Made by a program: the position numbers and the translations under genes. From NCBI GenBank assembly GCA_900318395.1, contig ONKL01000012.1, forward strand, positions 1-54,841: a DNA stretch of 54,841 nt. Reading direction: 5' to 3'. How positions within the stretch are numbered: the stretch's first letter is position 1; every line of letters begins with the position of its first letter. The notes under the pieces were generated by a model. It worked only from the letters and a program-made list of their open reading frames with translations, was not told the DNA's origin and searched no databases. Below are positions 30,347 to 43,131 of this stretch, piece after piece. The DNA comes from an uncultured Prevotella sp. (lineage in GTDB: Bacteria > Bacteroidota > Bacteroidia > Bacteroidales > Bacteroidaceae).

Positions 30347-33064
30347 CTATATGCTTTGTTTTTTAGGTAGGGTGATTGTAAACTCGGTGAATTCTTCCTT
30401 GACAGAGACAACGCTGATGTCGCCGCCGTGGTTTTGTATGATTTCACGGCTCAGATAGAGTCCAACACCTGCAGCTTCTTCTGTGGTCTTGGTGGTGAAG
30501 AAGGGGTCGAATATCTTGCCGATGCTTTTCTCCTCAATGCCGGTGCCGTTGTCGTGTACCTTCACGATGTAGTGACTGTCGGTGACGGTGGCCGAAAGCG
30601 TGATTTCCGGCAGGAAGGTTGCCTTTTGGGCTTTTTTCACTACGGCATAAACGGCATTTTCCAGCAGGCACATGATAGTCTCGCTCAGCAGGGTTGGGTT
30701 GCTATGCAGCGGCATAGCTTCGGTGGGCAATGTGAACACCGTGCTGAGGTGGTACTGCTCCTTCTCTTTGGCGAAATAACTGTTGAGCATCTGTTCGCTC
30801 TGCTTCAGCACTGGCAGCAGATCCATATCCGTATAGCCTCCCGTCCGGTCTTTCAGCATATCTTCCATCGCCTTCAGTATACGGGTGGTGTTCTTGCCGT
30901 ATTGTTCTATGTTCTGGTGGTTTTTCCCCAACATGCCGAGCATATCCTGCGCGTCGTCGTAGTCATCCTTGTCGATGCCGTCCTCGTTGAGTTCAATGAC
31001 TTTCCGGAGGTCTTTCAGCAGGTCGTTCGACATCTTTGAGAAGTTGATGATATAGTTCATTGGGTTGAGGATGCGGTCGACGAGTCCTTCTGTCAGTTTA
31101 CCCACTGTGGCCATCTTCTCCTGACGGATCAGTTTGTGCTGGGCGGTTCTCAGGTCGGCAGTTCGCTCCTCCACGATTTTCTCCAGTTTGACTTTTTCCT
31201 TTTTCAGTCGCCTCAGTCGGTAGCGGAACAGCAGATATACGATATAGATAAAGAATATAAAGTAGAGTAGCACCATATACCATCGCATCAGCAGGGGGTA
31301 TGCGACACTGAAATCTATAGAAGCTATTTCCGATAGTTCGCCGTTGGCCAGAAGAGCCTGTACACTGAGGGTGTAAGAACCATGTGAAAGATTTAAGAAC
31401 TCCGCATCTTGCCGGTTGCTCCAGGCACTCCACTGATTCTTGTTCAGTCTGTAGCGATACAGGGTGCTGCCCGATAGGGGCGTGTAGTCTAGTGCATAGA
31501 AGAAGTGCAGATGTCCCTCGTCGCTACCTAACATTGGCAATTGTGCAGGCATGTCGCCAAACCCTCCCCAGAGCACGCTGTCGTTACCCATGACAACCGA
31601 CCTGAAACGGATGGTGCGGCAGTCGGTGAGTCTGGCCAGTTGACTCTTGTCTGTATCGATGACGGCGACAACCTCGTCGCCGCCAATCCATATCTGGTAA
31701 CCGTAACGATACTGTGCAGTCATCTCAAAGCTGCTGACAGGTTTGAGCAAATAGTCTGGCAGGTCTTTCAGGAGGTCTCCAACACTGTCAGGAATCATTT
31801 CGGCGGCTTTCTCGTCAGCACCTTCTATCCACAACCTTTCACCATTCACATTACTGCACCACAGCCTGCCTTGGGCATCTTTGTTAATCTGCGTCACACG
31901 AGGCAAGGCGTTGACGCGCTGCCGCTGTCCTGCCTCATTGTAAACCCATATGCCGCCAGGCTCACCGGCATAAATCCTGTCGCCATCCACAAACAAGGCT
32001 GTAGTCGAATTCGAGGTCATCCGGACAATGTTGCCTCCTTGTGTAATCTTGTAAATGCCACTCGATGTGGCAGCGAGCAGACAGTCGTGGTAATGGCATA
32101 GCGTCCAGCAGATATTATTGATCTCAGGGATATGCTTAAGCTGGTGTGTCTGGATAGCAAACAGACCGTTGGTGCCGCCCACATATATCTTCCCGTCGAA
32201 GGCCATGATGGTTCGCACCTCACCTGCCAGACCGTCCTTGGCCAGGAAATAGCTATAGACAGACGGCAATTCGATGGAGAAAATTCCGTGCATGGTGGCT
32301 CCCCACAATACGCCGTGACCGTCGTAGACGACGTATGACACCTGATTGGAACAGAGGCCGTCGGCCTCTGTAATGTGATAGAGGTCATGGTCGAGGCTGT
32401 CTGCAATGATCAGTCCATGGCCTTTCTTCACCTTCACCTGCAGTCCTCCGTCGAGCACAGCCGTCTCTGTGATATCTTCAAGAATGATCTCTTTTCCCCC
32501 TTTCTTGAGTGCCTCAAATGATATGACTTCAGCATCGACATTGATACTGAAATCGGTGTTCAAGTGCTGCTTCCGTACGACAGTGGGAGCCGAATGTCCC
32601 GCTATGCTCCTGACCTCATAGAGATAATTGTCGCTAACTACGAACTGCAGGCATCCATCCTCTTCCGTCATCTCTAATACCTCGCCCTTGAACTGACCGT
32701 CTTTTCCCACTTGCTCCATATACAGCTCTCCGTTGGCGCGCTTCTGCACGCGGGCAAGGAAGTTGTAGCCGCCCACCCAGATGGTATTGTCAACGGCACG
32801 ATAGACCACTGTGATGCGGCTGATGTCGGGCGTATGGATGATGCGCCACCGTGAACGGTCATAGTAAAGCAGTCCCTCAAAGTTAGCAACGAAGACAGTG
32901 CCGTCATCGCCGATCTCGATATCGAAGCACCGGTTGTGCCCTCCGTATTCGCTGGCCGTATAATTACGGATGAGTGGAAGTCCTTGGGCTGATGAATCAG
33001 TGAAGGAAAGGCAGGATGTGAAAAGTAGAATATAGAATATGATCTTTCCCATAACACTATTCAT
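30347..33064 (-). CDS. Propeller sensor kinase with Asp in place of the H-box histidine
   Basis: A 905-residue membrane protein. A signal-like N-terminus is followed by periplasmic two-component-regulator beta-propeller repeats, a Y_Y_Y-type domain (about 530-600), one transmembrane helix (YMVLLYFIFFIYIVYLLF), a coiled linker (LEKIVEERTADLRTAQHKL), and a kinase core. In the H-box, GKLTEGLVDRILNPMNYI has Asp663-Arg where active kinases have His-Glu. The ATP-binding part looks intact: ENAVYAV (N-box), HDNGTGIEE (G1), DPFFTTKT (F-box) and GVGLYLSREII (G2). I recall the DRILNPMNY form in other Bacteroidota, so it may be a family trait. It overlaps the WD40 gene by 8 nt. Confidence 0.88.
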   Translation of the reverse strand: MNSVMGKIIFYILLFTSCLSFTDSSAQGLPLIRNYTASEYGGHNRCFDIEIGDDGTVFVANFEGLLYYDRSRWRIIHTPDISRITVVYRAVDNTIWVGGYNFLARVQKRANGELYMEQVGKDGQFKGEVLEMTEEDGCLQFVVSDNYLYEVRSIAGHSAPTVVRKQHLNTDFSINVDAEVISFEALKKGGKEIILEDITETAVLDGGLQVKVKKGHGLIIADSLDHDLYHITEADGLCSNQVSYVVYDGHGVLWGATMHGIFSIELPSVYSYFLAKDGLAGEVRTIMAFDGKIYVGGTNGLFAIQTHQLKHIPEINNICWTLCHYHDCLLAATSSGIYKITQGGNIVRMTSNSTTALFVDGDRIYAGEPGGIWVYNEAGQRQRVNALPRVTQINKDAQGRLWCSNVNGERLWIEGADEKAAEMIPDSVGDLLKDLPDYLLKPVSSFEMTAQYRYGYQIWIGGDEVVAVIDTDKSQLARLTDCRTIRFRSVVMGNDSVLWGGFGDMPAQLPMLGSDEGHLHFFYALDYTPLSGSTLYRYRLNKNQWSAWSNRQDAEFLNLSHGSYTLSVQALLANGELSEIASIDFSVAYPLLMRWYMVLLYFIFFIYIVYLLFRYRLRRLKKEKVKLEKIVEERTADLRTAQHKLIRQEKMATVGKLTEGLVDRILNPMNYIINFSKMSNDLLKDLRKVIELNEDGIDKDDYDDAQDMLGMLGKNHQNIEQYGKNTTRILKAMEDMLKDRTGGYTDMDLLPVLKQSEQMLNSYFAKEKEQYHLSTVFTLPTEAMPLHSNPTLLSETIMCLLENAVYAVVKKAQKATFLPEITLSATVTDSHYIVKVHDNGTGIEEKSIGKIFDPFFTTKTTEEAAGVGLYLSREIIQNHGGDISVVSVKEEFTEFTITLPKKQSI

Positions 33065-34619
33065 TTATCAGTTTCCTGTAAGGTATTCCTTTCCCCACAT
33101 AATAGTTCCACTCATCCCTGGTAAAATTACGTTTGACGTTTTTCTTCAGTCGTTGGCTGATAAGGGGGAGAGAAATGAGATATTGTGTGACGGTGCCGTT
33201 CGATTCTCCAGTCCATATATAGTTCTGCGGACTGTCGAAGGTGAAGTCTGCAAGCCAGCTGTTTGCCTGAAGCAACGTAATTGGCTTTATCTGGTTCTCA
33301 CCTGTCATCCACAAGAGCAGCTTTCTGTCGTAGCTGGATGAATAGAGCAGCCGTCCGTTGAATTTCAGTTTCGTCACCTGGGAGAGATGCCCTGCCAGCT
33401 TGTGAATCTGTCCATGACTGTCTGTGAGGTAGATGGTGCCGTCAGAAGTCCCGTAGGCAGCAAGTCCGTCGGCACTGTTGCTGGCAAAGCAAGTGATTTT
33501 CCCGCTCACAGGCACCTTCTCGTCTGTCATATCGTCCATGCTGTTTACCGCATGCATCCTTCCCTTGTCGTCAAACAGCAGGGGCTTGTTGTCACGTCGC
33601 CATGCACAAATGACCTTAAAGTCCAGCTGGCGCGAGGCAACGACCTTGTCTGTGTCCAGGTTGATCAGGGCAAGGTTCCGTTCACCAATAACCAGTAACT
33701 CCCGACGTTTGGTCATAATCTCCATGCGGAACGGCCTTGTCAGAAAGTTCAGATCAATGATTTTAGTCTTACCATCACCTGCGATTACTAGATGTCCTGT
33801 ATGGCTGATGGCATAGCTCCTGCCCGACATCGACGCGAAGGCATCCCTAAAACAATAGTTCTTGTTGCTGAACAGTTGTCTGGACACCATCCGGCCATTC
33901 TGCAGTTCGTTTAACGACATCTCACCGTGCGTACTGACCGTCAGCAGCTGTTTGCTATTGGGGAAAAAATCCACGCCAGTGATGCAACCTTCGTGTACGC
34001 TCCAGCTTTGTCTGCTATCCGACGACTGTGTCAGGGCAGGGAAGACTGAAGACGAATAGAGGTTGCCGCCGTAGTCGTGGGTAAACAGGTAAGAGGCGTA
34101 CGCTAGCATATTCCCCATTTCCTTATCACCTGTCCTATAGATGGAGTACGAAAGTGATCCGAGCGTACGCCCAAGTGATATATAGTTCAGCGTATCGGCG
34201 GTCAGCTTGGATTTCTCAGCCTGCCGCCGCTGTTCGTTGGCTTCCTTATGCTGTTGCTCTGCTATCTGATATGACTTAAGTGCCTCTTGCGCCGAATACT
34301 CTGCCTCCATCTGAGCCTGCACTGCCCTTTGTCGCTCTGTCTCTGACCGAATGGTGGCTGCCTGGGCGATTTCCGACTGTCGGATAGCCTCTTGACTACG
34401 CTCTTCCGAAAGCACTTGCTGCCCGTAGGCAATCTCCTCCATCTGTTTGCTGACCCTGCGATCTACAGATGACTTCTTTTGCTGTTTATTAAGCTCACCG
34501 ACCTGGTTTTCCAGTTCCCTGACCCGTTCACGATCACTTCGGTGCATAAAGATTCCCACCGCCATCGACAAAAGCAGCAGGAAGGACAAGCATCCGATGA
34601 TAACCTTCATTTTTTTCAT
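33057..34619 (-). CDS. Membrane-anchored coiled-coil WD40-type protein
   Basis: A 520-residue protein. One N-terminal membrane helix (VIIGCLSFLLLLSMAVGIF) is followed by a long coiled coil rich in Gln, Glu and Arg (about residues 30-140), then WD40-like propeller repeats (ITGVDFFPNSKQLLTVSTHG, ITCFASNSADGLAAYGTSDG, VTKLKFNGRLLYSSSYDRKL). No enzyme motif is seen. It looks like a scaffold facing the periplasm or cytoplasm. It is the first gene of the leftward operon and starts back to back with the STAS operon, which ties the two operons together in regulation. Confidence 0.8.
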   Translation of the reverse strand: MKKMKVIIGCLSFLLLLSMAVGIFMHRSDRERVRELENQVGELNKQQKKSSVDRRVSKQMEEIAYGQQVLSEERSQEAIRQSEIAQAATIRSETERQRAVQAQMEAEYSAQEALKSYQIAEQQHKEANEQRRQAEKSKLTADTLNYISLGRTLGSLSYSIYRTGDKEMGNMLAYASYLFTHDYGGNLYSSSVFPALTQSSDSRQSWSVHEGCITGVDFFPNSKQLLTVSTHGEMSLNELQNGRMVSRQLFSNKNYCFRDAFASMSGRSYAISHTGHLVIAGDGKTKIIDLNFLTRPFRMEIMTKRRELLVIGERNLALINLDTDKVVASRQLDFKVICAWRRDNKPLLFDDKGRMHAVNSMDDMTDEKVPVSGKITCFASNSADGLAAYGTSDGTIYLTDSHGQIHKLAGHLSQVTKLKFNGRLLYSSSYDRKLLLWMTGENQIKPITLLQANSWLADFTFDSPQNYIWTGESNGTVTQYLISLPLISQRLKKNVKRNFTRDEWNYYVGKGIPYRKLINE

Positions 34620-34621
34620 GT

Positions 34622-34646
34622 CAGCGCAAAATTCAGCGCAAAATTA
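34622..34646 (-). promoter_or_regulatory. Tandem CAGCGCAAAATT repeat with a -7 element for the leftward operon
   Basis: A 12-bp unit is repeated in tandem (34622-34633 and 34634-34645). On the minus strand the second unit gives TAATTTTG (34646-34639), a match to TAnnTTTG 20 bp from the WD40 start. No -33 element is visible. Confidence 0.45.
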
Positions 34647-34697
34647 AGCATAATATTATAAAGTGGTTGCGTTTTAATATATTTTAACCAGTTCAGA

Positions 34698-34729
34698 TTT
34701 GGCAATTCGGGCATATTGTTCTATCTTTG
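34698..34729 (+). promoter_or_regulatory. Promoter of the STAS-VgrG-SpoIIE operon
   Basis: TTTG (34698-34701), a 20-bp spacer and TATCTTTG (34722-34729). A small hairpin (TTGCGG/CCGCAA, 34738-34754) follows near the expected RNA start and may protect the 5' end. Confidence 0.8.
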
Positions 34730-34784
34730 CAGAAGTTTTGCGGACTCGCCGCAAGGAAAATAGTTTCTACTAAATAGCAGATTC

Positions 34785-35243
34785 ATGGAAAATAGAGTAA
34801 GAATAAAGAAAGAGGGTACGACGCTCCATGTCAGGCTGGACTATGAGTTGTCGACGTCCAACGCCGCCTCATATCAGGAGCAGCTGAGTGAATATTGCGG
34901 GCAGGACATCCAGAAAGTGGTGTTCGATGCTACAGATTTGGTATATATCTCCAGTTCTGGCATCCGGGTTTTGCTTTTCGCACAAAACAGTTTGGGCAAT
35001 AATCCGGAGATCGTATTTCTGAACTGCGCCAAGGAGATTTTTGAGACCTTGGAGTTGACAGGCATCACCAACTTCTTCACATTTATTGAAGGTGAGCGTA
35101 AGAACGGCTCTGCCGGCAGTGAGGCTTCTGATGATATCTGGCAGCAAAAGATGTCTGACAACCGGCAGAAGATGCTCGACCACTTCTCCGCCAACAATGA
35201 TGTGGTGATGTATCAGATGAGATTAGGAGAGACAGAAGAATAG
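34785..35243 (+). CDS. STAS-domain anti-sigma factor antagonist (SpoIIAA/RsbV-like)
   Basis: A 152-residue protein. Residues 1-105 are a STAS domain with the phosphorylation loop DLVYISSSGIRVLL; Ser57 or Ser58 matches the serine phosphorylated by RsbW-type kinases. A charged tail of about 45 residues follows, longer than in classical RsbV (about 110 residues). It is the first gene of the operon that ends with an RsbW-like kinase and a SpoIIE-type phosphatase, so a full partner-switching module brackets the spike genes. Confidence 0.9.
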   Translation: MENRVRIKKEGTTLHVRLDYELSTSNAASYQEQLSEYCGQDIQKVVFDATDLVYISSSGIRVLLFAQNSLGNNPEIVFLNCAKEIFETLELTGITNFFTFIEGERKNGSAGSEASDDIWQQKMSDNRQKMLDHFSANNDVVMYQMRLGETEE

Positions 35244-35270
35244 CATTACATAACTAAAAACCAAATTATT

Positions 35271-38200
35271 ATGGCAACACTAAAATTGACAATCTACCGG
35301 CAAAATAATAAAAATGCAAAAAAGAACCTGGAAAATGACATAGTTCTTGAAACGTCGATACGGACTGCCAAGTACAAATTTAACGGCAATGATTATCTGC
35401 TTAGCCTTGCGGGGCTTGACATCAACATGCAGATGTATCGTCCCTCGGAGATCCTTGCAGACATCAGTATAGCCATGGATAGAGGAAATAACTGGATAAC
35501 TATACCAAGGACTTGTTTCGAAATATTTAAGGACAAGAAGGTCGGCCTCAGTTCGGGCGAGTTCCTGATAGGAAAAGATTTCTATGTGCATGAGGTTATC
35601 CCCGAGTGCTACTCTGACTCCATACACCTGAAGCTGAAGATCTACAGCCCTGACAAGGTACTTACTCTGAAGAATACCAGCCGCACCTTTGTTGGGAAAC
35701 GGCTTTCGGAGATTCTGACCTCCGAACTTAAGAAATACAGTCATCCCGCTGACGAGAAAGACTGCCTGAAGTTCAACACAGACAATCTGCAGGTGCTGAA
35801 GTTCGAGAGGCTTATAAAAAATAAGGTCCAAGATGAGCACATGTTCCCTTTCCTGGTGCAGTATAATGAGAGTATCTATGACCTCCTGGCCCGAACAGCC
35901 AACCGCTGGGGAGAGTTCATGTATTATCGCGATGGTAAACTTCATTTCGGTTATAATGAGAAACAAGCCCCCAATGATTTAAAAGATCAAGATAAAAAGA
36001 ATAAATACTACAAAATCACCTATCCGAGCTATAATACGGACGCTGTGCTGACGAATGGTGATGGGAGTGGTGTTTACGACCTGGAGGCCGTCTATGACGC
36101 GACTGTCAGCGATACGCCGGTGGAGGAGTCGCCTTACAAGGTAAAGGGTGAACTGGGCAAGTTTAACGGTGCGGCTGACAAATATTTCATGAGAAAGATT
36201 GCCTCATTCCTAGGCAATGATAAGGACTTGATTACCTGGCTTTTCAACAATCTGGTCGACGACTCTGTCAGTGTGGCTGAGAGCGTTGTGTACAATAAGA
36301 TGTTGAACAAAGACCTGGACGGGGAATACTTCACAGATGAGAATAAGACAAAATATCCCCTGCAGTTTGGTGAACAGGAATTTACCCTGTACGAAGATGT
36401 GAAAGAGAAAAAGCAAGCCTACAATCAGTTTACTGAATATAATTCTATTTACACCTCAGGCAAGTATAAGAAGATACTGGAAGCAGAGCGGGCGTCATCA
36501 AAGAATCTGGTGCAGATAAATTTCAATACGACCTACCCAGATGTGAAGCTTGGCGATCAGATTATTGTCGATAAGGAGAAGTTCATTGTCGTAGGTATCA
36601 CTGGCAAACCGACCGAACAATATATAGAAGACGATGGGGAAATCACAACCCATTACTCATTTGTTGTGACTGCGATTGCGCGGAAGGATGACAAGAGCAT
36701 CTTCTATCCGACCATGCTGCCTTCGGGACACGTAAGATATTCCGGCCCCCAGAAAGGTGCCATCATGGCAGCGAATGATCCCACGCTAAATCATCGCGTA
36801 CGGGTGCTGTTCGACTGGCAGTACGAGGGGGAAGAGACGGTGGAAGATGAAGATACTGGTCAAGAAATAAAAATGCCTAAACCTATTGACGATGCCACCG
36901 AGGCCTCTCCCTGGCTGATATTCGCCGCCAAGGGCGAGGGCAAACCATCGACGGGCCGGCATGTGGTTGCATCCAAAGTACTGGTAGGTTTCGTCGACGG
37001 CAATATTGAGCGACCTTATGTGATGGGATACATACAGGACAAGACCACATTAGACAAAACCATCGACGTGGATCTCGACACCGACCAGGGCCACTACCTC
37101 CGATTGTCCGACGGTTCCAGAGGGGCCGGACTCTCCAGCTTCCTCTTTGGTGCATTTTCTCCGGCAGCCAGCACCATCTCCGATTTCTGGCCCAATTTTG
37201 CATTCAACCTCGGGAAAAGTGCTCATCTCGAAGGCGGTTTCAAGTTAAGCGACTATTACGGCATCTATAAGATCACTGGCTCCAGCGACCAGCGCAACAT
37301 CACCATTAGCTCGCCCTGGGGCGACGTGAAGATGAACGCGTTTACTGGCATTACCATCTCTGCGCCCAATGGCGACGTGAAGATCTGCGGCAAGAACGTC
37401 ACCATCGAGGCGGGCAACAACCTGAAGCTGGTGTCGGGAACGAATGTGGACCACAAGTTCGCAGCAGACAAGAAATACAGTGGCACCTCTGCCGCTACCG
37501 TCCTGATGAGTGCCTCGGCAGCCATTGTTAATCGACTGGCGGATAAGGTCACGCTGCTCGACCTGTCTATCGTCAGGTCGGTCGTCGAGATTGTGATGCG
37601 CCCCGTGGAGGGAGCACTCACGGTCAAGTCGAGCCGCTTCTTGAAGTTGGAGGCTGGCAAGAATGCCTGTGAGTATCCGATGTCGGCATATAACCAAAAG
37701 AAGAGAGAACAGATTCAAAAAGACGTAGCAGATGCGAGCCAGGCGTTAGGAGCTTCCTTGAACAAGAAGACTCCGCTGAGGGCAAGCCTCGCAAGACTCT
37801 TTATGTATGCTCCATATCAAGCAAAAGCTGACCAAAAAGACATCAACGCTTTTTACAATGATTGCCTCATTAAGAAGAAAGGACTTGAGGCTGCAATCTT
37901 TGAATTGAAAGAATGGTCAGAAAAACCTGATGACAAACCTTGCAACGATTATGAGAATCTGAAGACTATCCTGTGGGACACAGACACCAAAAAGACCAAG
38001 ATTGAAGAAAAAGACCTCGGGTTTACAGAAGATGTCAGTATAGAAGATGGTGCAAAAACCGAAAATGCACAGGGGCGACAAGCATGTGGTAAGAATTTTG
38101 CAAAAAAATGCCGTGGTTTGGCACGTAAGAAGGTTGCTAAAAAAGCAACAGAACTTAGACGAGCCATCCTCAAGATTCTGAACTACGGATCCAAAACGAC

Positions 38201-38849
38201 CGAGAAGCTGTGCGAGGCGAAAATCAAAAAGTTTCTTAAGACGCCTCCTCCCAAGGATGCTGCCAAAATCATATACGAAGTTTTTTGGAGGGAAAATAAC
38301 AAAGATCTGCCTATCTTTAAGCTGAGTGATGATATCAAAAATCTTTCAGCAGCGGAAAATCCCATTGGCGATAACATCGTAAAATTCTTGCGTAGAGTGT
38401 ACGCCTTGAATATGCTGGACAAGTTCAAACTAATCGAAGATGTCAACAAGCCTACGGTGACCAATGCCGAGACTACAACGCAGGGGAGCATTATGCATGA
38501 CGATACCTGGAAAGCATTCATAAACCAGCTCAAAGCAGATGCCCTTGCGGTGAGCGACTTCGATAAATGGAAGGATGATATGAATTTAAAAAGTCTCGGC
38601 TTATCTGTGGCTGGTGATTTGAATCCCTTTGCATTCTGGTCGAAGTTAAAAGGCCCCTGGGACGAGCGTTCATCTTGGGACAACAACAACAGGGGTACCA
38701 TCCTATTTGGAGCTAACAAACAGACCTATCAGTTTGGTACGGGCGACAATCCTCAAATGCAAATCATACCAAAGTTGAAACCGCAGCTTCCCGACGAAGC
38801 CGCTAATGAATTTCTGGCTGAGTTAAGGCATAATCTAAAAGAACTGTAA
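35271..38849 (+). CDS. VgrG-like spike protein with a large C-terminal extension
   Basis: A 1192-residue protein. Residues about 1-450 resemble the gp27-like hub of VgrG, including VQYNESIYDLLARTANRWG. At about 480-580 lies the gp5-type OB fold: HRVRVLFDWQYEG, SPWLIFAAKGEG, VLVGFVDGNIERPYVMGYI. Beta-helix needle repeats follow at about 640-800 (GDVKICGKNVTIEAGNNLKL, GALTVKSSRFLKLEAG). The last 390 residues are Lys-rich and helical with no match I recognise; they may be a cargo domain. No sheath, baseplate, tube or ATPase genes of a type VI system are in the window, so this spike is an orphan here. Confidence 0.82.
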   Translation: MATLKLTIYRQNNKNAKKNLENDIVLETSIRTAKYKFNGNDYLLSLAGLDINMQMYRPSEILADISIAMDRGNNWITIPRTCFEIFKDKKVGLSSGEFLIGKDFYVHEVIPECYSDSIHLKLKIYSPDKVLTLKNTSRTFVGKRLSEILTSELKKYSHPADEKDCLKFNTDNLQVLKFERLIKNKVQDEHMFPFLVQYNESIYDLLARTANRWGEFMYYRDGKLHFGYNEKQAPNDLKDQDKKNKYYKITYPSYNTDAVLTNGDGSGVYDLEAVYDATVSDTPVEESPYKVKGELGKFNGAADKYFMRKIASFLGNDKDLITWLFNNLVDDSVSVAESVVYNKMLNKDLDGEYFTDENKTKYPLQFGEQEFTLYEDVKEKKQAYNQFTEYNSIYTSGKYKKILEAERASSKNLVQINFNTTYPDVKLGDQIIVDKEKFIVVGITGKPTEQYIEDDGEITTHYSFVVTAIARKDDKSIFYPTMLPSGHVRYSGPQKGAIMAANDPTLNHRVRVLFDWQYEGEETVEDEDTGQEIKMPKPIDDATEASPWLIFAAKGEGKPSTGRHVVASKVLVGFVDGNIERPYVMGYIQDKTTLDKTIDVDLDTDQGHYLRLSDGSRGAGLSSFLFGAFSPAASTISDFWPNFAFNLGKSAHLEGGFKLSDYYGIYKITGSSDQRNITISSPWGDVKMNAFTGITISAPNGDVKICGKNVTIEAGNNLKLVSGTNVDHKFAADKKYSGTSAATVLMSASAAIVNRLADKVTLLDLSIVRSVVEIVMRPVEGALTVKSSRFLKLEAGKNACEYPMSAYNQKKREQIQKDVADASQALGASLNKKTPLRASLARLFMYAPYQAKADQKDINAFYNDCLIKKKGLEAAIFELKEWSEKPDDKPCNDYENLKTILWDTDTKKTKIEEKDLGFTEDVSIEDGAKTENAQGRQACGKNFAKKCRGLARKKVAKKATELRRAILKILNYGSKTTEKLCEAKIKKFLKTPPPKDAAKIIYEVFWRENNKDLPIFKLSDDIKNLSAAENPIGDNIVKFLRRVYALNMLDKFKLIEDVNKPTVTNAETTTQGSIMHDDTWKAFINQLKADALAVSDFDKWKDDMNLKSLGLSVAGDLNPFAFWSKLKGPWDERSSWDNNNRGTILFGANKQTYQFGTGDNPQMQIIPKLKPQLPDEAANEFLAELRHNLKEL

Positions 38850-38861
38850 ACAGACTATACT

Positions 38862-40823
38862 ATGACATATATATTTGAAGAATGGAAGGAAGTGCTGGAG
38901 AAATTCCAGAAGTGCGTGGATCAGGGGGTAGAGGAGATGCACCAACAGAAGGAAGAGGTGCAGCAGATCAAGGATGATATCTTCAGCCGCCTCGACAGTG
39001 GAAACATCATCCGCGACGACAGGCGCATCGTGCTCTCGGCGCCGGAGATCATAATCGGCGATGTTGACAAGAGCGGCACGCTGACAGGCGAGATGGGTAC
39101 GGTCATCGTCAGGGGCCATCACGTGGCGCTCGAAGGTGCCGGCGAGAGCGGCAGCGTCGTCACCCGTGCCCCGCTTATCGAGCAGAAAGCCGTCAACCCC
39201 GGTATCGACGGGCACGAGAACGTGGTGGGCACCACGTCGCAGATCGTCTCGCAGGCCTGCTCCATCATGCTCCACAGCAGCAATGCCACCGATGCGTTCT
39301 CGCAGGTGCCGGCCGATCCCGGTAACGGCGGCATCAGCATCCATGCCGACAGCCAGCTGAACATCGAAGCAGCCGTCTCAGCCGAGCAGCGCAAGAAGCA
39401 GATTGAAAACACGCTGAAAGTGCTCGACAAGCACAGCGGCGACCTTAAGTCGAGCATGACGGCGCAGAAGTCGGCGGTCGATAAGTTCATCAGCGAGATG
39501 GTGAAGCTGGTGGAGAAGGAAGAGAAGCTGAACGAAACCGAGAACTACGAGACCTTCGTGAACCTGAGCGACATCGACGCGCTGCACGACGAGATGGACG
39601 AGCTGATGCCTGCACTGCTGACGAGCATACAGGGATTTATCAACACCGTGTCGGAGCTGGCAGAGGTGAACCGCAGCAAGAAGGCCCTGAAGGCAGAGAA
39701 GGATAATATCAAGACGGGCGACGACTTCAAGAAGAATACCACCGGCGCCGCGATGAATATCAAGGCGGAGAACATCAGTATAGCCACTGCCGACGGCGAC
39801 GGCAACCTGCACACGAACAGCGAGGCAGGCATCAGCGTCAGCACGCCACGCATGGCAGTAAGCATGCACGACGGCGAAGGCGCACTCGTAAAGGACGGCT
39901 ATTTCAACGTGAGTGCCCACGACATCAATATCAACACCGCTAACCCGAAGACCAAGGAGTGGCCCGTGGAAGGCAAGGTGCATATCTGGTCGAAGGATAT
40001 CAGCCTGGAGGCTATCGACTACAAGATGAACGACAAGGGCGTGTTTATGGAGAAAGAACTCACCAAGGACGGCAAGATCACCCTGGGCGCCAAGACCATC
40101 GAGGTATCGACCGCCAACCCGAAAGACGTGGAGCGCGACGAGAAGGGCAAGCTCACCAAGGGTGAATATACCGGCGACGGCGAGCTGACACTCAAGTCGA
40201 AGAGCATCAGCGTAGAGGGTCTCGACTACGAGGTGAAGGACGGCAAACAGAAGGCGAAGGCGCTCACCAAAGATAGTAAGGTGACCATCCGCGCCGAGAA
40301 GCAGACCATCATCGCCGCCGACGGTGAGGGCAAGGCCACGGGTAGCATCGCCATCAATGCGAAGGCGGTCAGCGTGAAGTCGATGGACGTCGACAAGGAG
40401 AAGCTCACCGACAGTGGCCTGGCCTCGGGCAGCACGATGACACTCGTATCGGAGAAGATGTTTGTGGGTCAGAAGACGAAGAGCGAGAAGAGCAAGAAGC
40501 TGCAGCTCGTCAGCGAGGAGTTAGGCGCTTTCGGCGACAAGACCTTGGAGATACAGCAGGGCGACGGCAAGGCCCTCGTTCAGCTCAGCGGCGGCAATGC
40601 CTCGATGGGTGGCAGCAAGTCGCAGATCTACGGCGATACCACCATCACTGGTAAGGCCGACATCAAGGGCGACGTGAAGGCACCGAAGGGAACGTTCGAC
40701 AATCTGGAGGCCAAGACTTCCTTCAAGTCGTCGAACATCAGCGACGGCTTCGCTATTCCAGGAGCTCCTGCCTCTGGTAAGCTGAGTGCGAAGCTGAAGA
40801 CGGAAGACGCGCCGAAGGAGTAA
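38862..40823 (+). CDS. Large repetitive beta-helix-like protein, probable needle or spike partner
   Basis: A 653-residue protein. A coiled N-terminus (FEEWKEVLEKFQKCVDQGVEE) leads to strands like those of VgrG needles (RIVLSAPEIIIGD, GTVIVRGHHVALEG). A helical stretch at about 180-290 is followed by at least five repeats of the form G-x-(I/L)-T/H-(L/I)-x-(A/S)-K-x-I (KVHIWSKDISLEA, KITLGAKTIEVS, ELTLKSKSISVEG, KVTIRAEKQTII, SIAINAKAVSVKS), ending in Gly/Ala/Pro-rich sequence. The base composition is visibly more GC-rich than the flanks. It starts 12 nt after the VgrG gene. I infer that it extends or caps the spike; it matches no family I can name. Confidence 0.6.
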   Translation: MTYIFEEWKEVLEKFQKCVDQGVEEMHQQKEEVQQIKDDIFSRLDSGNIIRDDRRIVLSAPEIIIGDVDKSGTLTGEMGTVIVRGHHVALEGAGESGSVVTRAPLIEQKAVNPGIDGHENVVGTTSQIVSQACSIMLHSSNATDAFSQVPADPGNGGISIHADSQLNIEAAVSAEQRKKQIENTLKVLDKHSGDLKSSMTAQKSAVDKFISEMVKLVEKEEKLNETENYETFVNLSDIDALHDEMDELMPALLTSIQGFINTVSELAEVNRSKKALKAEKDNIKTGDDFKKNTTGAAMNIKAENISIATADGDGNLHTNSEAGISVSTPRMAVSMHDGEGALVKDGYFNVSAHDININTANPKTKEWPVEGKVHIWSKDISLEAIDYKMNDKGVFMEKELTKDGKITLGAKTIEVSTANPKDVERDEKGKLTKGEYTGDGELTLKSKSISVEGLDYEVKDGKQKAKALTKDSKVTIRAEKQTIIAADGEGKATGSIAINAKAVSVKSMDVDKEKLTDSGLASGSTMTLVSEKMFVGQKTKSEKSKKLQLVSEELGAFGDKTLEIQQGDGKALVQLSGGNASMGGSKSQIYGDTTITGKADIKGDVKAPKGTFDNLEAKTSFKSSNISDGFAIPGAPASGKLSAKLKTEDAPKE

Positions 40824-40852
40824 ATATGATGAAGAATTAAGAATTAAGAGAT

Positions 40853-41524
40853 ATGAACAGAGCAGCAATAAGAGAATTCGATAAGATGAGCGATTCGCTC
40901 AGTACACTGAACGCCCAGTTCGCCTACCGGCTTATGAATCTGTGCGTAAAGTCAGAGCCCGTGGCGCTGTTGCCTATCCTCGTTAATATCGAGGGCGAAC
41001 TGCAGAAACTCGAGGAATGTGCACAGATCTCGAAAGATGACGACTACACCTTCAAAGTGTTCGCCAACTATAGCAGCGACATACCCGCTCTCGCTCAGGG
41101 TATCTTCAAGACTCACCCAGAGTTTAAGCAGGAATTGTTCGAAGAGGAAGTGGAATACATTGACGAAGATGGCGAGGAACGGGTGGACAAAGTGCCTTAC
41201 ATCCTGCTGACGATGCCCGAGGTGAACGACGATCGCTACGACGTGCTGAAGGACGGCGTAAAGGCCATCTATGAAGACACGAAGGTCAAGATGGAGAACG
41301 TCATTGCCAATGCCGATGTTAAGATGGCCGAGCTGATGGCAGGTGAGAGCGAGGCCGACATCGAGAAAGTGAAGAAGAACCGCGACAAACAGGTGAAGAC
41401 CTGGACGGAACAGCGTGATAAAGTTTACAACAAAAAGCTCCAGGAAATAGAGGAAGCTCATTCTAAATGGCTGTTAGAGCAGTCCGACCAGCGGCTGAAG
41501 AATCTGATGAACATGAAGAAATGA
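40853..41524 (+). CDS. Hypothetical acidic coiled-coil protein
   Basis: A 223-residue soluble protein without signal peptide. The N-terminal half is helical (FDKMSDSLSTLNAQFAYRLM), the middle is very acidic (FEEEVEYIDEDGEERVDKV), and the last 90 residues form a long charged coiled coil (IEKVKKNRDKQVKTWTEQRD and on). I do not recognise the family. Its place between the spike genes and the RsbW kinase suggests a chaperone, adaptor or regulator for the spike. A short repeat (AGAATTAAGAATTAAGAG) lies just upstream. Confidence 0.65.
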   Translation: MNRAAIREFDKMSDSLSTLNAQFAYRLMNLCVKSEPVALLPILVNIEGELQKLEECAQISKDDDYTFKVFANYSSDIPALAQGIFKTHPEFKQELFEEEVEYIDEDGEERVDKVPYILLTMPEVNDDRYDVLKDGVKAIYEDTKVKMENVIANADVKMAELMAGESEADIEKVKKNRDKQVKTWTEQRDKVYNKKLQEIEEAHSKWLLEQSDQRLKNLMNMKK

Positions 41525-41549
41525 CAACCACTTATTGGATGCAAAGACC

Positions 41550-41957
41550 ATGACCAGGTTGTACTTCCAACCCATCCGCGGCAAGTCACTCGATATTATC
41601 CGAGCGATACTCCAGACAGAGGAAATTGCTTCGGCAGGAAACGTTTTTGGCGACATTCATTTGGCAACTGAGGAACTGGTGGTGAATATCGTTGACAATG
41701 CCTATCCTGACGGTGGGAATGACTATCTCGGTGTTGAAATCATGCGCAGCGAAGATGGCATTACCCTGCGCTTCCGAGACGGCGGCATTCCGTTCAACCC
41801 ACTTAAAAAAGACAGCCCCGACACTTCTTTGCCGATTAATCAACGAAAGATAGGCGGACTGGGCATCTATTTCGTCATGAGGAAGATGGACGGTGTCGAA
41901 TATGAGTACACTAACGGCGAGAATATGCTCACGATAAGAAAGAACCTACAAAAGTAG
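41550..41957 (+). CDS. RsbW/SpoIIAB-like serine-protein kinase (HATPase_c_2)
   Basis: A 135-residue GHKL ATPase. The N-box is EELVVNIVDNAY (residues 41-52), G1 is FRDGGIPFNP and G2 is IGGLGIYFVMRKM. Such proteins phosphorylate a STAS antagonist and release or hold a target, classically a sigma factor. The frame is open from TTG 41535, but ATG 41550 gives the normal family start MTRLYFQPI. It lies 25 nt after the coiled-coil gene and 7 nt before the phosphatase gene. Confidence 0.9.
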   Translation: MTRLYFQPIRGKSLDIIRAILQTEEIASAGNVFGDIHLATEELVVNIVDNAYPDGGNDYLGVEIMRSEDGITLRFRDGGIPFNPLKKDSPDTSLPINQRKIGGLGIYFVMRKMDGVEYEYTNGENMLTIRKNLQK

Positions 41958-41964
41958 ACTGACG

Positions 41965-43131
41965 ATGGCAGCAATAAAGATACTATGCGTCGATGATGAG
42001 GCGGCTGTGGAGCTGCTGATGAGACAATACTTCAGGCGGAAAATCCGCAGCGGAGAGTATGAGTTCTTCTTCGCCAGCAACGGCATAGAGGCACTCGAGG
42101 TGATGTACAACAACCCAGATATAGAGATCATTCTCAGCGACATCAATATGCCCGATATGGACGGACTGACACTCTTGGCCAAGGTGGACGAGATGCGCAA
42201 CCCTGCACTTCACGTTATCATGGTGAGTGCCTATGGTAACATGGCGAATATCCGACAGGCGATGAACAACGGTGCCTTTGACTTTGCTGTCAAACCCATC
42301 GACATGGATGACCTGAGCCTGACCATCGAGAAAGCCATCGAAAGGATCAACTTTGTACATAAGACCGAACAGGAACACACACAACTAGAATCGTTGAAAA
42401 AGGAGCTTACTACGGCCAGGGATATCCAGCAATTTATCCTGCCACAAACATTCCCCCCTTTCCCGGAGGAGAGCGACAAGATAGACATCTATGCCTCGAT
42501 GGAGGCTGCAAAGGACATTGGCGGCGATTTCTACGATTTCTTTCGTATCGACGACGACCGCGTAGCTCTCGTCATTGCCGATGTCTGCGGCAAAGGGATT
42601 CCTGCAGCTCTGTTCATGGCCATCAGCCGAACCGTCATACGCTCGAAGGGCATGTTGTATTCTGATACTGGCAAGTGCATGACGGAATCGAACCTGCCGC
42701 TGGTGGCCTATTCGGCTGACTATATGTTTGTCACCGTGTTCTATGCTGTCTATAATATGAAGACTGGTCTTCTTGCCTATTGCAATGCAGGCCATAACCG
42801 GCCTGTGCTGTTGCATTCCGACGGAACGACAGAGGTACTCCCGAAGCCAGGAAATCCGTTCGTCGGTGTTTACAACAATGTCGTATATAAGGAGGACACC
42901 CTGCAAATGGAGAGCGGCGACACGCTGGTGATGTACACCGACGGAGTGACCGAGGCCTGCAACCCCGAAAAGCAGATGTTCGGACAGGATCGATTCTGCT
43001 CTACTCTCAGCAGCCTTGCCGATAAGAACTGCCGACAAATCATCGAAGTAGTGAAAGCCGACATCAGCGACTTCACGACAGGTGCTGAACAGAACGACGA
43101 CATCACGATACTTGCGCTCAAAAGAAAGTGA
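41965..43131 (+). CDS. Response regulator with SpoIIE-type PP2C phosphatase domain (RsbU-like)
   Basis: A 388-residue protein. Residues 1-125 are a receiver domain: acidic pair Asp10-Asp11, phospho-acceptor Asp59 in LSDINMPDMDG, and the conserved Lys in FAVKPID. A coiled linker (KELTTARDIQQFILPQ) leads to a PP2C/SpoIIE domain with metal-binding GGDFYDFF, IADVCGKGIPAALFMA, YTDGVTEA and QNDDITILAL. It should dephosphorylate the STAS protein when the receiver is phosphorylated. Its kinase partner is unclear, because the sensor in the divergent operon lacks the H-box histidine. It is the last gene before the right flanking repeat. Confidence 0.93.
   Translation: MAAIKILCVDDEAAVELLMRQYFRRKIRSGEYEFFFASNGIEALEVMYNNPDIEIILSDINMPDMDGLTLLAKVDEMRNPALHVIMVSAYGNMANIRQAMNNGAFDFAVKPIDMDDLSLTIEKAIERINFVHKTEQEHTQLESLKKELTTARDIQQFILPQTFPPFPEESDKIDIYASMEAAKDIGGDFYDFFRIDDDRVALVIADVCGKGIPAALFMAISRTVIRSKGMLYSDTGKCMTESNLPLVAYSADYMFVTVFYAVYNMKTGLLAYCNAGHNRPVLLHSDGTTEVLPKPGNPFVGVYNNVVYKEDTLQMESGDTLVMYTDGVTEACNPEKQMFGQDRFCSTLSSLADKNCRQIIEVVKADISDFTTGAEQNDDITILALKRK

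Follow-up and report, generated by a model that had tools for sequence, protein, structure and literature searches.

A VgrG-type spike gene enclosed by the genes of a partner-switching module raises the question of which machine the spike serves and what the switch controls. Partner switching of the SpoIIAA/SpoIIAB and RsbV/RsbW kind classically controls sigma factors. The locus lies in the window, as the whole stretch of 54,841 nucleotides analysed here is called (contig ONKL01000012.1, assembly GCA_900318395.1, uncultured Prevotella sp.). The initial annotation saw in it a spike-bearing structure of its own, switched by dephosphorylation of a STAS protein. That reading as a whole is partly supported: the separate apparatus falls away, and switching through STAS gains specific support from a C-terminal tail by which this protein would contact the spike.

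An operon of spike and switch genes

The six genes stand in the places and on the strand first reported, all on the + strand and separated by gaps of 7–29 bp (Table 1). The roles proposed for the three switch proteins are upheld. The STAS protein exceeds the PF01740 cut-off of 22.6 bits, its fold profile matches SPOIIAA among solved relatives (E 7.7e-10), and S57, the putative phosphorylatable serine, aligns at the acceptor place. The kinase passes HATPase_c_2 and the last protein passes both Response_reg and SpoIIE, with 172.1 bits for the SpoIIE domain (PF07228). The kinase may start at ATG 41550 instead of TTG 41535, since two homologues begin MIRLHFQ and VMTRLHFQ. The serine at the acceptor place, the RsbW-like kinase and the SpoIIE phosphatase are shared with SpoIIAA/SpoIIAB and RsbV/RsbW; unlike in these systems, the output appears to be a spike and not a sigma factor, and STAS carries an extra C-terminal tail.

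Table 1. Position and basis of assignment of the operon and the neighbouring signalling genes in the window
Feature	Position	Strand	Basis
STAS protein, 152 aa, acceptor serine S57 in ISSSG, C-terminal tail	34785..35243	+	PF01740 51 bits; S57 by alignment
cc-type tail of STAS, about residues 128-152, ...FSANNDVVMYQMRLGETEE	35166..35240	+	tail profile and alignment
VgrG-type spike protein, 1192 aa	35271..38849	+	Pfam and family profile
'Helix' protein, 653 aa, constant VgrG partner	38862..40823	+	family comparison
cc protein, 223 aa, RRF-like, without the usual C-terminal tail	40853..41524	+	Pfam, PDB profile, tail profile
RsbW-type kinase, 140 aa from TTG 41535 (135 aa from ATG 41550)	41535..41957	+	PF13581 61.5 bits; homologues
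Receiver-SpoIIE phosphatase, 388 aa	41965..43131	+	Pfam
WD40 protein, 520 aa, signalling module	33057..34619	-	Pfam; synteny
Reg_prop/Y_Y_Y sensor with HATPase, 905 aa, H-box His -> Asp	30347..33064	-	Pfam; synteny
TonB-dependent receptor, 802 aa	27938..30346	-	relatives

The partner-switching module, described at first as complete, is so in the window; elsewhere it is not, as the RsbW gene occurs in the operons of 0 of the 9 window-type relatives. The genes for the WD40 protein, the Reg_prop kinase and the TonB receptor are divergent from the six-gene operon in the window, and are counted in the module because in 8 of the 9 window-type relatives they follow SpoIIE within one operon.

The identification of the 1192-residue protein as VgrG-like is borne out. 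GPD, Phage_base_V and DUF2345 occur in VgrG order, each below its Pfam cut-off for the single sequence, and a family profile built from 42 of 84 non-redundant sequences matches solved VgrG chains in a PDB profile search (best E 6.1e-32). By sequence, the protein classes as a VgrG of the gp27/gp5 type. A private toxin end was ruled out: residues 41–1147 align with the VgrG of contig C60 and residues 42–1155 with one VgrG of contig C66. The 653-residue helix protein matches no Pfam family at E 0.1, and its family profile finds no convincing solved relative in the PDB search, the best match being a coiled coil (E 6.4e-4); 'beta-helix-like' is a plausible description. For the third protein, here called cc, 'unknown coiled-coil' does not hold as a description: a match to Pfam RRF (29.9 bits, cut-off 29.7) and a hit in the PDB profile search (E 1.2e-12) identify it as ribosome-recycling-factor-like (RRF-like).

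The type VI machine of the same genome

A scan of operon proteins and flanking ORFs in the window reveals no sheath, tube or baseplate genes, which speaks against an extracellular contractile injection system or a prophage tail. A prophage tail was also rejected on PHROG matches, which for four proteins are only weak, and an anti-phage defence system on the lack of a PADLOC match for seven proteins.

On contig C66 of the same genome lies a type VI locus of the Bacteroidota kind (T6SSiii). It includes a VgrG-helix-cc trio of its own, at 15–21 kb between hcpB and PAAR. In its core, TssC (PF17541), TssD (PF17642) and gp25 score over their cut-offs and TssK is weak; TssB and TssF are called from position only. 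The ClpV, TssC, Hcp and baseplate genes are on C66, a contig other than that of the window, and nine further helix-gene matches exist beyond the window and the C66 trio. Because the machine genes lie on another contig and the same trio is found inside the C66 locus, the simplest view of the window spike is that it serves T6SSiii as an auxiliary one, and the separate spike-bearing apparatus of the initial annotation is rejected. The refuting case named in the initial annotation holds in its first half only: spike genes of this kind do lie in a type VI locus of the usual sort, but the regulatory genes also occur beyond the window.

The joining of partner-switch genes to spike genes is indeed recurrent, judging by gene neighbourhoods in rumen Prevotella-like bacteria. 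A STAS gene is present in the operon of 47 of the 83 cassettes not labelled main versus 0 of the 27 labelled main; this set of 110 remained after 10 of 120 cassettes had been dropped for an identical cc protein, and several sampled stretches repeat contigs present under other records (e.g. L122, L020). Within the genome of the window, 7 of 14 soluble STAS genes (not counting a STAS match on C29 that lies in a frame of 578 residues) and 6 of 19 SpoIIE domains have a helix gene at a distance of 7 kb or less, where 0.58 and 0.79 are expected (p 5e-7 and 9e-5; binomial, with no correction for tandem copies and the 7 kb chosen after the places were known). Helix matches occur in 3 of the 151 genomes of a family-wide scan.

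The TssC, Hcp/TssD, ClpV-type ATPase, gp25 and VgrG families described for Bacteroidota T6SSiii in the accessible parts of PMC10781749 and PMC4714493 are found in this genome; by comparison with those accounts, the spikes here have helix and RRF-like partners as well as a switch. The accessible text of PMC10781749 contains neither the word STAS nor the word SpoIIE, and that of PMC4714493 neither STAS nor phosphatase.

A tail on STAS or on the cc protein

At the C-terminus of ordinary cc proteins stands a conserved tail. In 25 cassettes that have a long STAS, among them that of the window, the tail is missing from the cc protein and forms the end of STAS instead. With a tail profile built from cc proteins alone, 25 of 26 long STAS ends score 7.3–24.9, the cc proteins of the same 25 cassettes no more than 6.7, and 29 short STAS no more than 0.0; L036 is counted among the short ones for its short-type C-terminus despite an ORF of 144 aa. 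The best of 1300 shuffles outscores four of the 25 STAS ends. Loci sampled later agree (6 of 6, plus L178, L182 and L183). Among 85 cassettes without a tailed STAS, the cc protein falls below the tail threshold in 13, in some of which the motif has diverged.

The remaining 1454 C-termini from the same loci score no higher than 6.5, and a general cargo signal is rejected as the meaning of the STAS tail on this ground. This bears on the proposal that the tail marks STAS for loading, and that the protein is then delivered into neighbouring cells to act on their switches. A tail common to STAS and a spike-linked protein would suit such delivery, as would a window operon in whose six scanned proteins no obvious effector is found; the producer's kinase and phosphatase genes would, however, have no role, and we regard cargo as highly improbable.

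Window-type loci with a spike and a visible STAS have the tailed form in 8 of 8 cases, and the spike-free sister modules L184–L188 have a tail-less STAS in 5 of 5; one further spike-free sister module has a tailed STAS. Across the genus, full-length tailed STAS was found in at least 14 of 398 genomes among the at most 3 or 9 candidates scored per genome, and all 14 are among the 32 genomes with a helix match. In the record Prevotella sp. ne3005, a cassette with tailed STAS (L035) occurs alongside a main T6SSiii locus (L086). Independent contrasts on the trees number only 5 and 4, too few for significance (the helix tree keeps 106 of 110 cassettes, those with a helix below 450 residues being left out). 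As spike-free STAS nest among tailed ones with weak support in a STAS tree that excludes the one from L188, gain and loss of the tail are indistinguishable.

The spike-free modules L184–L188 show that the same signalling set exists on its own, as might be expected if an ordinary auxiliary VgrG island were merely co-transcribed with a standard partner switch that governs expression through a sigma or anti-sigma factor encoded elsewhere, with STAS making no contact with the spike. The classical role of partner switching would fit as well. This explanation is nevertheless unlikely: it does not account for a STAS that carries the cc tail precisely where the cc protein is without it, and none of the six operon proteins matches a sigma factor. 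L179 and L180, from a genome (G285) with spikes elsewhere, have a tailed STAS and no local spike; with L118 of that genome they may form a pair in trans. Together with the likeness of the tails, L179 and L180 would accord with a decoy that competes with the cc tails of other spikes for a docking site and blocks or ranks them, but the missing tail on the neighbouring cc protein in 25 of 25 cassettes would be left unexplained, and a decoy appears very unlikely.

Where the operon includes SpoIIE, 22 of 22 tailed STAS have the acceptor serine. Of 3 tailed STAS from operons lacking SpoIIE, 2 have glycine in its place and retain the tail; L019 keeps the serine in such an operon.

Proposed licensing of a spike by a partner switch

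The reading that we favour, at slightly short of an even chance, is that this auxiliary T6SSiii spike is under direct phospho-control and obtains its docking tail in trans from a STAS protein that SpoIIE controls. In T6SSiii spikes of the ordinary kind, VgrG, helix and RRF-like cc proteins would form one unit, in which the cc tail makes a needed contact, perhaps with the baseplate. In the window cassette and its kin the cc tail is missing and a separate STAS protein carries it instead. RsbW would phosphorylate S57, and the receiver-SpoIIE phosphatase, driven by the TonB receptor/WD40/Reg_prop module, would remove the phosphate. Unphosphorylated STAS would then dock on the cc/helix/VgrG unit, supply the tail and license the spike, which the main machine could then load and fire. 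The sequence itself shows the genes, the T6SSiii locus, the recurrent linkage, the tail that is on either cc or STAS, and a serine retained alongside SpoIIE; we infer from these that STAS contacts the spike, that the contact depends on phosphate, which way the switch works and how the signal travels.

Information might instead flow from the spike: STAS could ride the loaded spike, be lost or freed on firing, and so report firing to the switch and to expression. The tail, which suggests a STAS bound to the spike unit, is compatible with this, and in Bordetella secretion is tied to expression via an exported anti-sigma factor, according to the accessible text of PMC7498569. Yet the operon has no output gene for such a report and the SpoIIE proteins bring their own sensor parts, which makes a sensor spike decidedly unlikely.

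Returning to licensing by STAS, searches of open-licence papers brought up none that we recognised as linking STAS/SpoIIE or partner switching with a type VI spike. The PpkA/PppA threonine phosphorylation pathway of the Pseudomonas T6SS employs a kinase and a PP2C-type phosphatase, and acts via an FHA protein on the whole machine. Post-translational control of type VI activity would be common to both, but PpkA/PppA has no STAS protein. A further parallel is BtrU/BtrV/BtrW of Bordetella, where a secretion machine is subject to a SpoIIE phosphatase, a STAS protein and an RsbW-like kinase, through a mechanism that PMC7498569 calls unknown. That machine is type III and not tied to one spike, whereas the one here is type VI; the accessible text makes no mention of a tail shared with a machine part.

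The presence, on a switch protein, of a tail that normally belongs to a companion of the spike suggests that the use of this spike is decided by outside signals. It is a tentative generalization, held at rather less than an even chance, that one spike class keeps its docking tail on a detachable STAS and that outside signals, via the SpoIIE phosphatase, choose which spike is loaded. The proposal addresses how a bacterium that has many VgrG spikes selects the one to use. It makes a specific claim that can be tested: use of the spike would require a tail of about 20 residues, provided when called for. The proposal might also help to explain how BtrUVW acts on type III secretion in Bordetella. 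If true, partner switching would gain a secretion machine as a new output, and spikes would be licensed one by one through a structural rather than a sigma-factor output.

The window operon and the type VI system of its genome

The six open reading frames of the window operon lie where the initial annotation placed them, on the + strand and separated by intergenic gaps of 7–29 bp, and its partner-switch genes are borne out by STAS, HATPase_c_2, Response_reg and SpoIIE domains above the Pfam cut-off. The VgrG-like protein displays GPD, Phage_base_V and DUF2345 in the correct order, albeit all under the cut-off; its family profile (42 relatives) matches solved VgrG chains with a best E value of 6.1e-32. 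The 653-residue protein that follows, termed helix here, has no Pfam match. The next protein (cc), formerly described as an unknown coiled coil, is present but identifiable as similar to ribosome recycling factor (RRF): it scores 29.9 bits against Pfam RRF, whose cut-off is 29.7, and a profile of 88 relatives matches RRF structures at E 1.2e-12. The observation as a whole is confirmed.

Coordinates of features named in the text
Feature	Position	Occurrence	Assignment
cc	window:40853-41524	family of 88 sequences, T6SSiii spike cassettes	RRF-like by Pfam and PDB profile
Reg_prop kinase	window:30347-33064		
ThiF/E1-like gene	L007:9044-10174		

The accompanying interpretation, a spike-bearing apparatus or surface structure switched by dephosphorylation of the STAS protein, is right in part: the spike is most simply a component of a type VI secretion system (T6SS) located elsewhere in the genome. 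The assembly (3.59 Mb, 132 contigs, 89.7% complete), in which the window is contig C23, harbours a T6SSiii locus on contig C66, with a ClpV-type AAA ATPase, a weak match to TssK, a ThiF-like gene, and TssC (PF17541, 336.8 bits), TssD/Hcp (PF17642) and gp25/TssE over the cut-off; TssB and TssF have no Pfam match and are named from position alone. The VgrG, helix and cc trio is also found inside this locus, and 11 members of the helix family are matched genome-wide, window included, which amounts to many spike cassettes for a single identified machine. A ThiF/E1-like gene recurs beside baseplate genes in main T6SSiii loci, for instance in locus L007.

The window feature is best read as an auxiliary T6SSiii spike, and its association with a phospho-switch is strongly patterned. 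No description of such an association was found in the literature searched on type VI, partner switching, Prevotella and VgrG; nor did searches joining type VI secretion, ribosome recycling factor and Bacteroid-, or T6SS, rumen, Prevotella and VgrG, return anything related. The nearest described case is BtrUVW of Bordetella, which concerns type III secretion (PMC7498569).

Switch genes beside spike cassettes

STAS and SpoIIE genes adjoin six of the 11 helix matches of the window's own genome (C23, C46, C60, C82, C92 and C132), and of its 14 soluble STAS genes seven are no more than 7 kb from a helix gene, where 0.58 would be expected. The same genome has about 19 SpoIIE-domain matches, several of them in spike-free SpoIIE-RsbW-STAS sets (contigs C49, C78, C81, C89, C48 and others).

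A scan of named genomes, with titles mostly Prevotella or Prevotellaceae, yielded at least 78 loci (80 of 112 matches kept); once own and further loci were added, the set comprised 110 cassettes, each with a different cc protein. Cassettes were labelled main when the stretch contained a same-strand TssB, TssC, TssK, TssF or ThiF-like gene (n=27). As the sample was selected via the helix protein, the counts are fractions of helix-bearing cassettes: STAS is in the operon of none of the 27 main cassettes, in contrast with 47 of the 83 others; of these 83, 41 have SpoIIE and 39 have both. An RsbW domain, for the remaining member of the module, accompanies the pair in 13 of those 39. The switch is a recurrent companion of spike cassettes. 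Two loci, L109 and L130, possess helix, receiver-SpoIIE, WD40 and Reg_prop kinase genes, and none for VgrG, cc or STAS was recognised; a Q/N/S-rich ORF precedes helix in both.

A tail shared by cc and STAS proteins

The STAS proteins are of two kinds. Short ones, of about 100 residues, are paired mostly with larger SpoIIE proteins, and both scanned phosphatases partnering them (L012, L103) are Cache-HAMP sensors. Long ones, of 135–169 residues, bear a C-terminal tail with the consensus FAANNDVVCYxMKLGQ, and a tail of similar sequence forms the C-terminus of ordinary cc proteins (L030 cc, EEEAAHNESAAYSMKLGQEDIN; L091 STAS, EDYAAHNDVVCYQMKLGQED). A profile built from the C-terminal 32 residues of 49 cc proteins, all from cassettes without STAS or SpoIIE, was applied to 26 long STAS ends. 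It scores 7.3–24.9 on 25 of them; the remaining one, from L036 (-1.8), belongs to a short STAS whose ORF start is set too far upstream. Maxima are 0.0 for 29 short STAS and 6.5 for 1454 other distinct C-termini of the same loci, and 1300 shuffled long-STAS ends give a 99th percentile of 4.4 and a maximum of 10.0, above four of the 25 true ends.

In the 25 cassettes with tailed STAS the cc score never exceeds 6.7, and outside them it is above 7 in 72 of 85. Of the 13 cassettes that fall short, two (L020, L074) are window-type loci that end before the STAS gene, L118 is on a 4.5 kb contig, and most others have, by eye, a divergent cc tail motif. The cc proteins end 12–23 residues past the last helix motif in window-type, C60-type and L042/L081 cassettes, and at least 31 residues past it in 77 of 85 others; C46- and C132-type cassettes have 30–38 residues of unlike sequence there. 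In 25 cassettes collected after the tail was discovered, a tail-less cc stands beside the tailed STAS in six of six; in the remaining 19 the cc tail is over threshold in 10 and under it in nine, a sign that the profile loses sensitivity in this set. The pattern also holds in three additional loci (L178, L182, L183).

The state of the tailed STAS changes seven times on the helix tree, five of them forced by well-supported branches, and eight times, four forced, on the cc tree with the tail removed. The cc and STAS tails change oppositely, never the same way, in five and four independent contrasts, too few for this behaviour to be significant. Tailed STAS form a single clade in one tree; with spike-free relatives added, these fall among the tailed ones with weak support, so that either gain or loss of the tail may have come first. 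L184, a spike-free module, has the phosphatase closest to the window's (73% identity), and the window order of STAS, spike genes, RsbW and SpoIIE looks like an insertion between STAS and RsbW of an L184-L187-like module; that the spike genes were the inserted party is a guess.

Natural controls and a proposed phospho-switch

All 22 tailed STAS whose operon includes SpoIIE have the acceptor serine. The three without SpoIIE all keep the tail and have glycine (L042, L081, near relatives and perhaps a single event) or serine (L019); short STAS keep the serine with and without SpoIIE. The spike-free modules L184-L187 comprise a tail-less STAS (103 residues), RsbW, receiver-SpoIIE, WD40 and Reg_prop kinase, and L188 is alike without RsbW, while all eight window-type loci with a spike and a visible STAS have the tail (window, L016, L017, L018, L019, L047, L053, L094). 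Two counter-cases come from one genome, G285: in L179 a signalling module with no spike nearby contains both a tailed and a tail-less STAS, and in L180 a tailed STAS is accompanied by RsbW alone, again with no local spike. This genome carries spikes on other contigs, including L118, where cc lacks the tail and no STAS is visible, and pairing in trans is possible. A search of 398 genomes of the genus gives 27 full-length tailed STAS, spread over 14 genomes that all belong to the 32 in which helix is matched; matches to the STAS domain alone extend to genomes lacking a helix match.

As the tail resides on cc or STAS and on no other neighbour tested, the STAS protein most likely acts as a component of the spike unit, and retention of the serine where SpoIIE is present makes it most likely that its contact with this unit is phospho-controlled. 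In SpoIIAA the unphosphorylated form binds; by analogy, unphosphorylated STAS would be the binding form here. Where RsbW is missing, the kinase might be another RsbW of the genome (the window's own genome has 13 HATPase_c_2 matches over the cut-off) or the Reg_prop protein's own HATPase; the H-box histidine of that protein is replaced by aspartate in all 11 module copies examined. In L095 a 273-residue kinase with the histidine retained adjoins the Reg_prop copy. From the tail distribution, the serine retention and the SpoIIAA analogy, we propose that dephosphorylation would license one particular spike.
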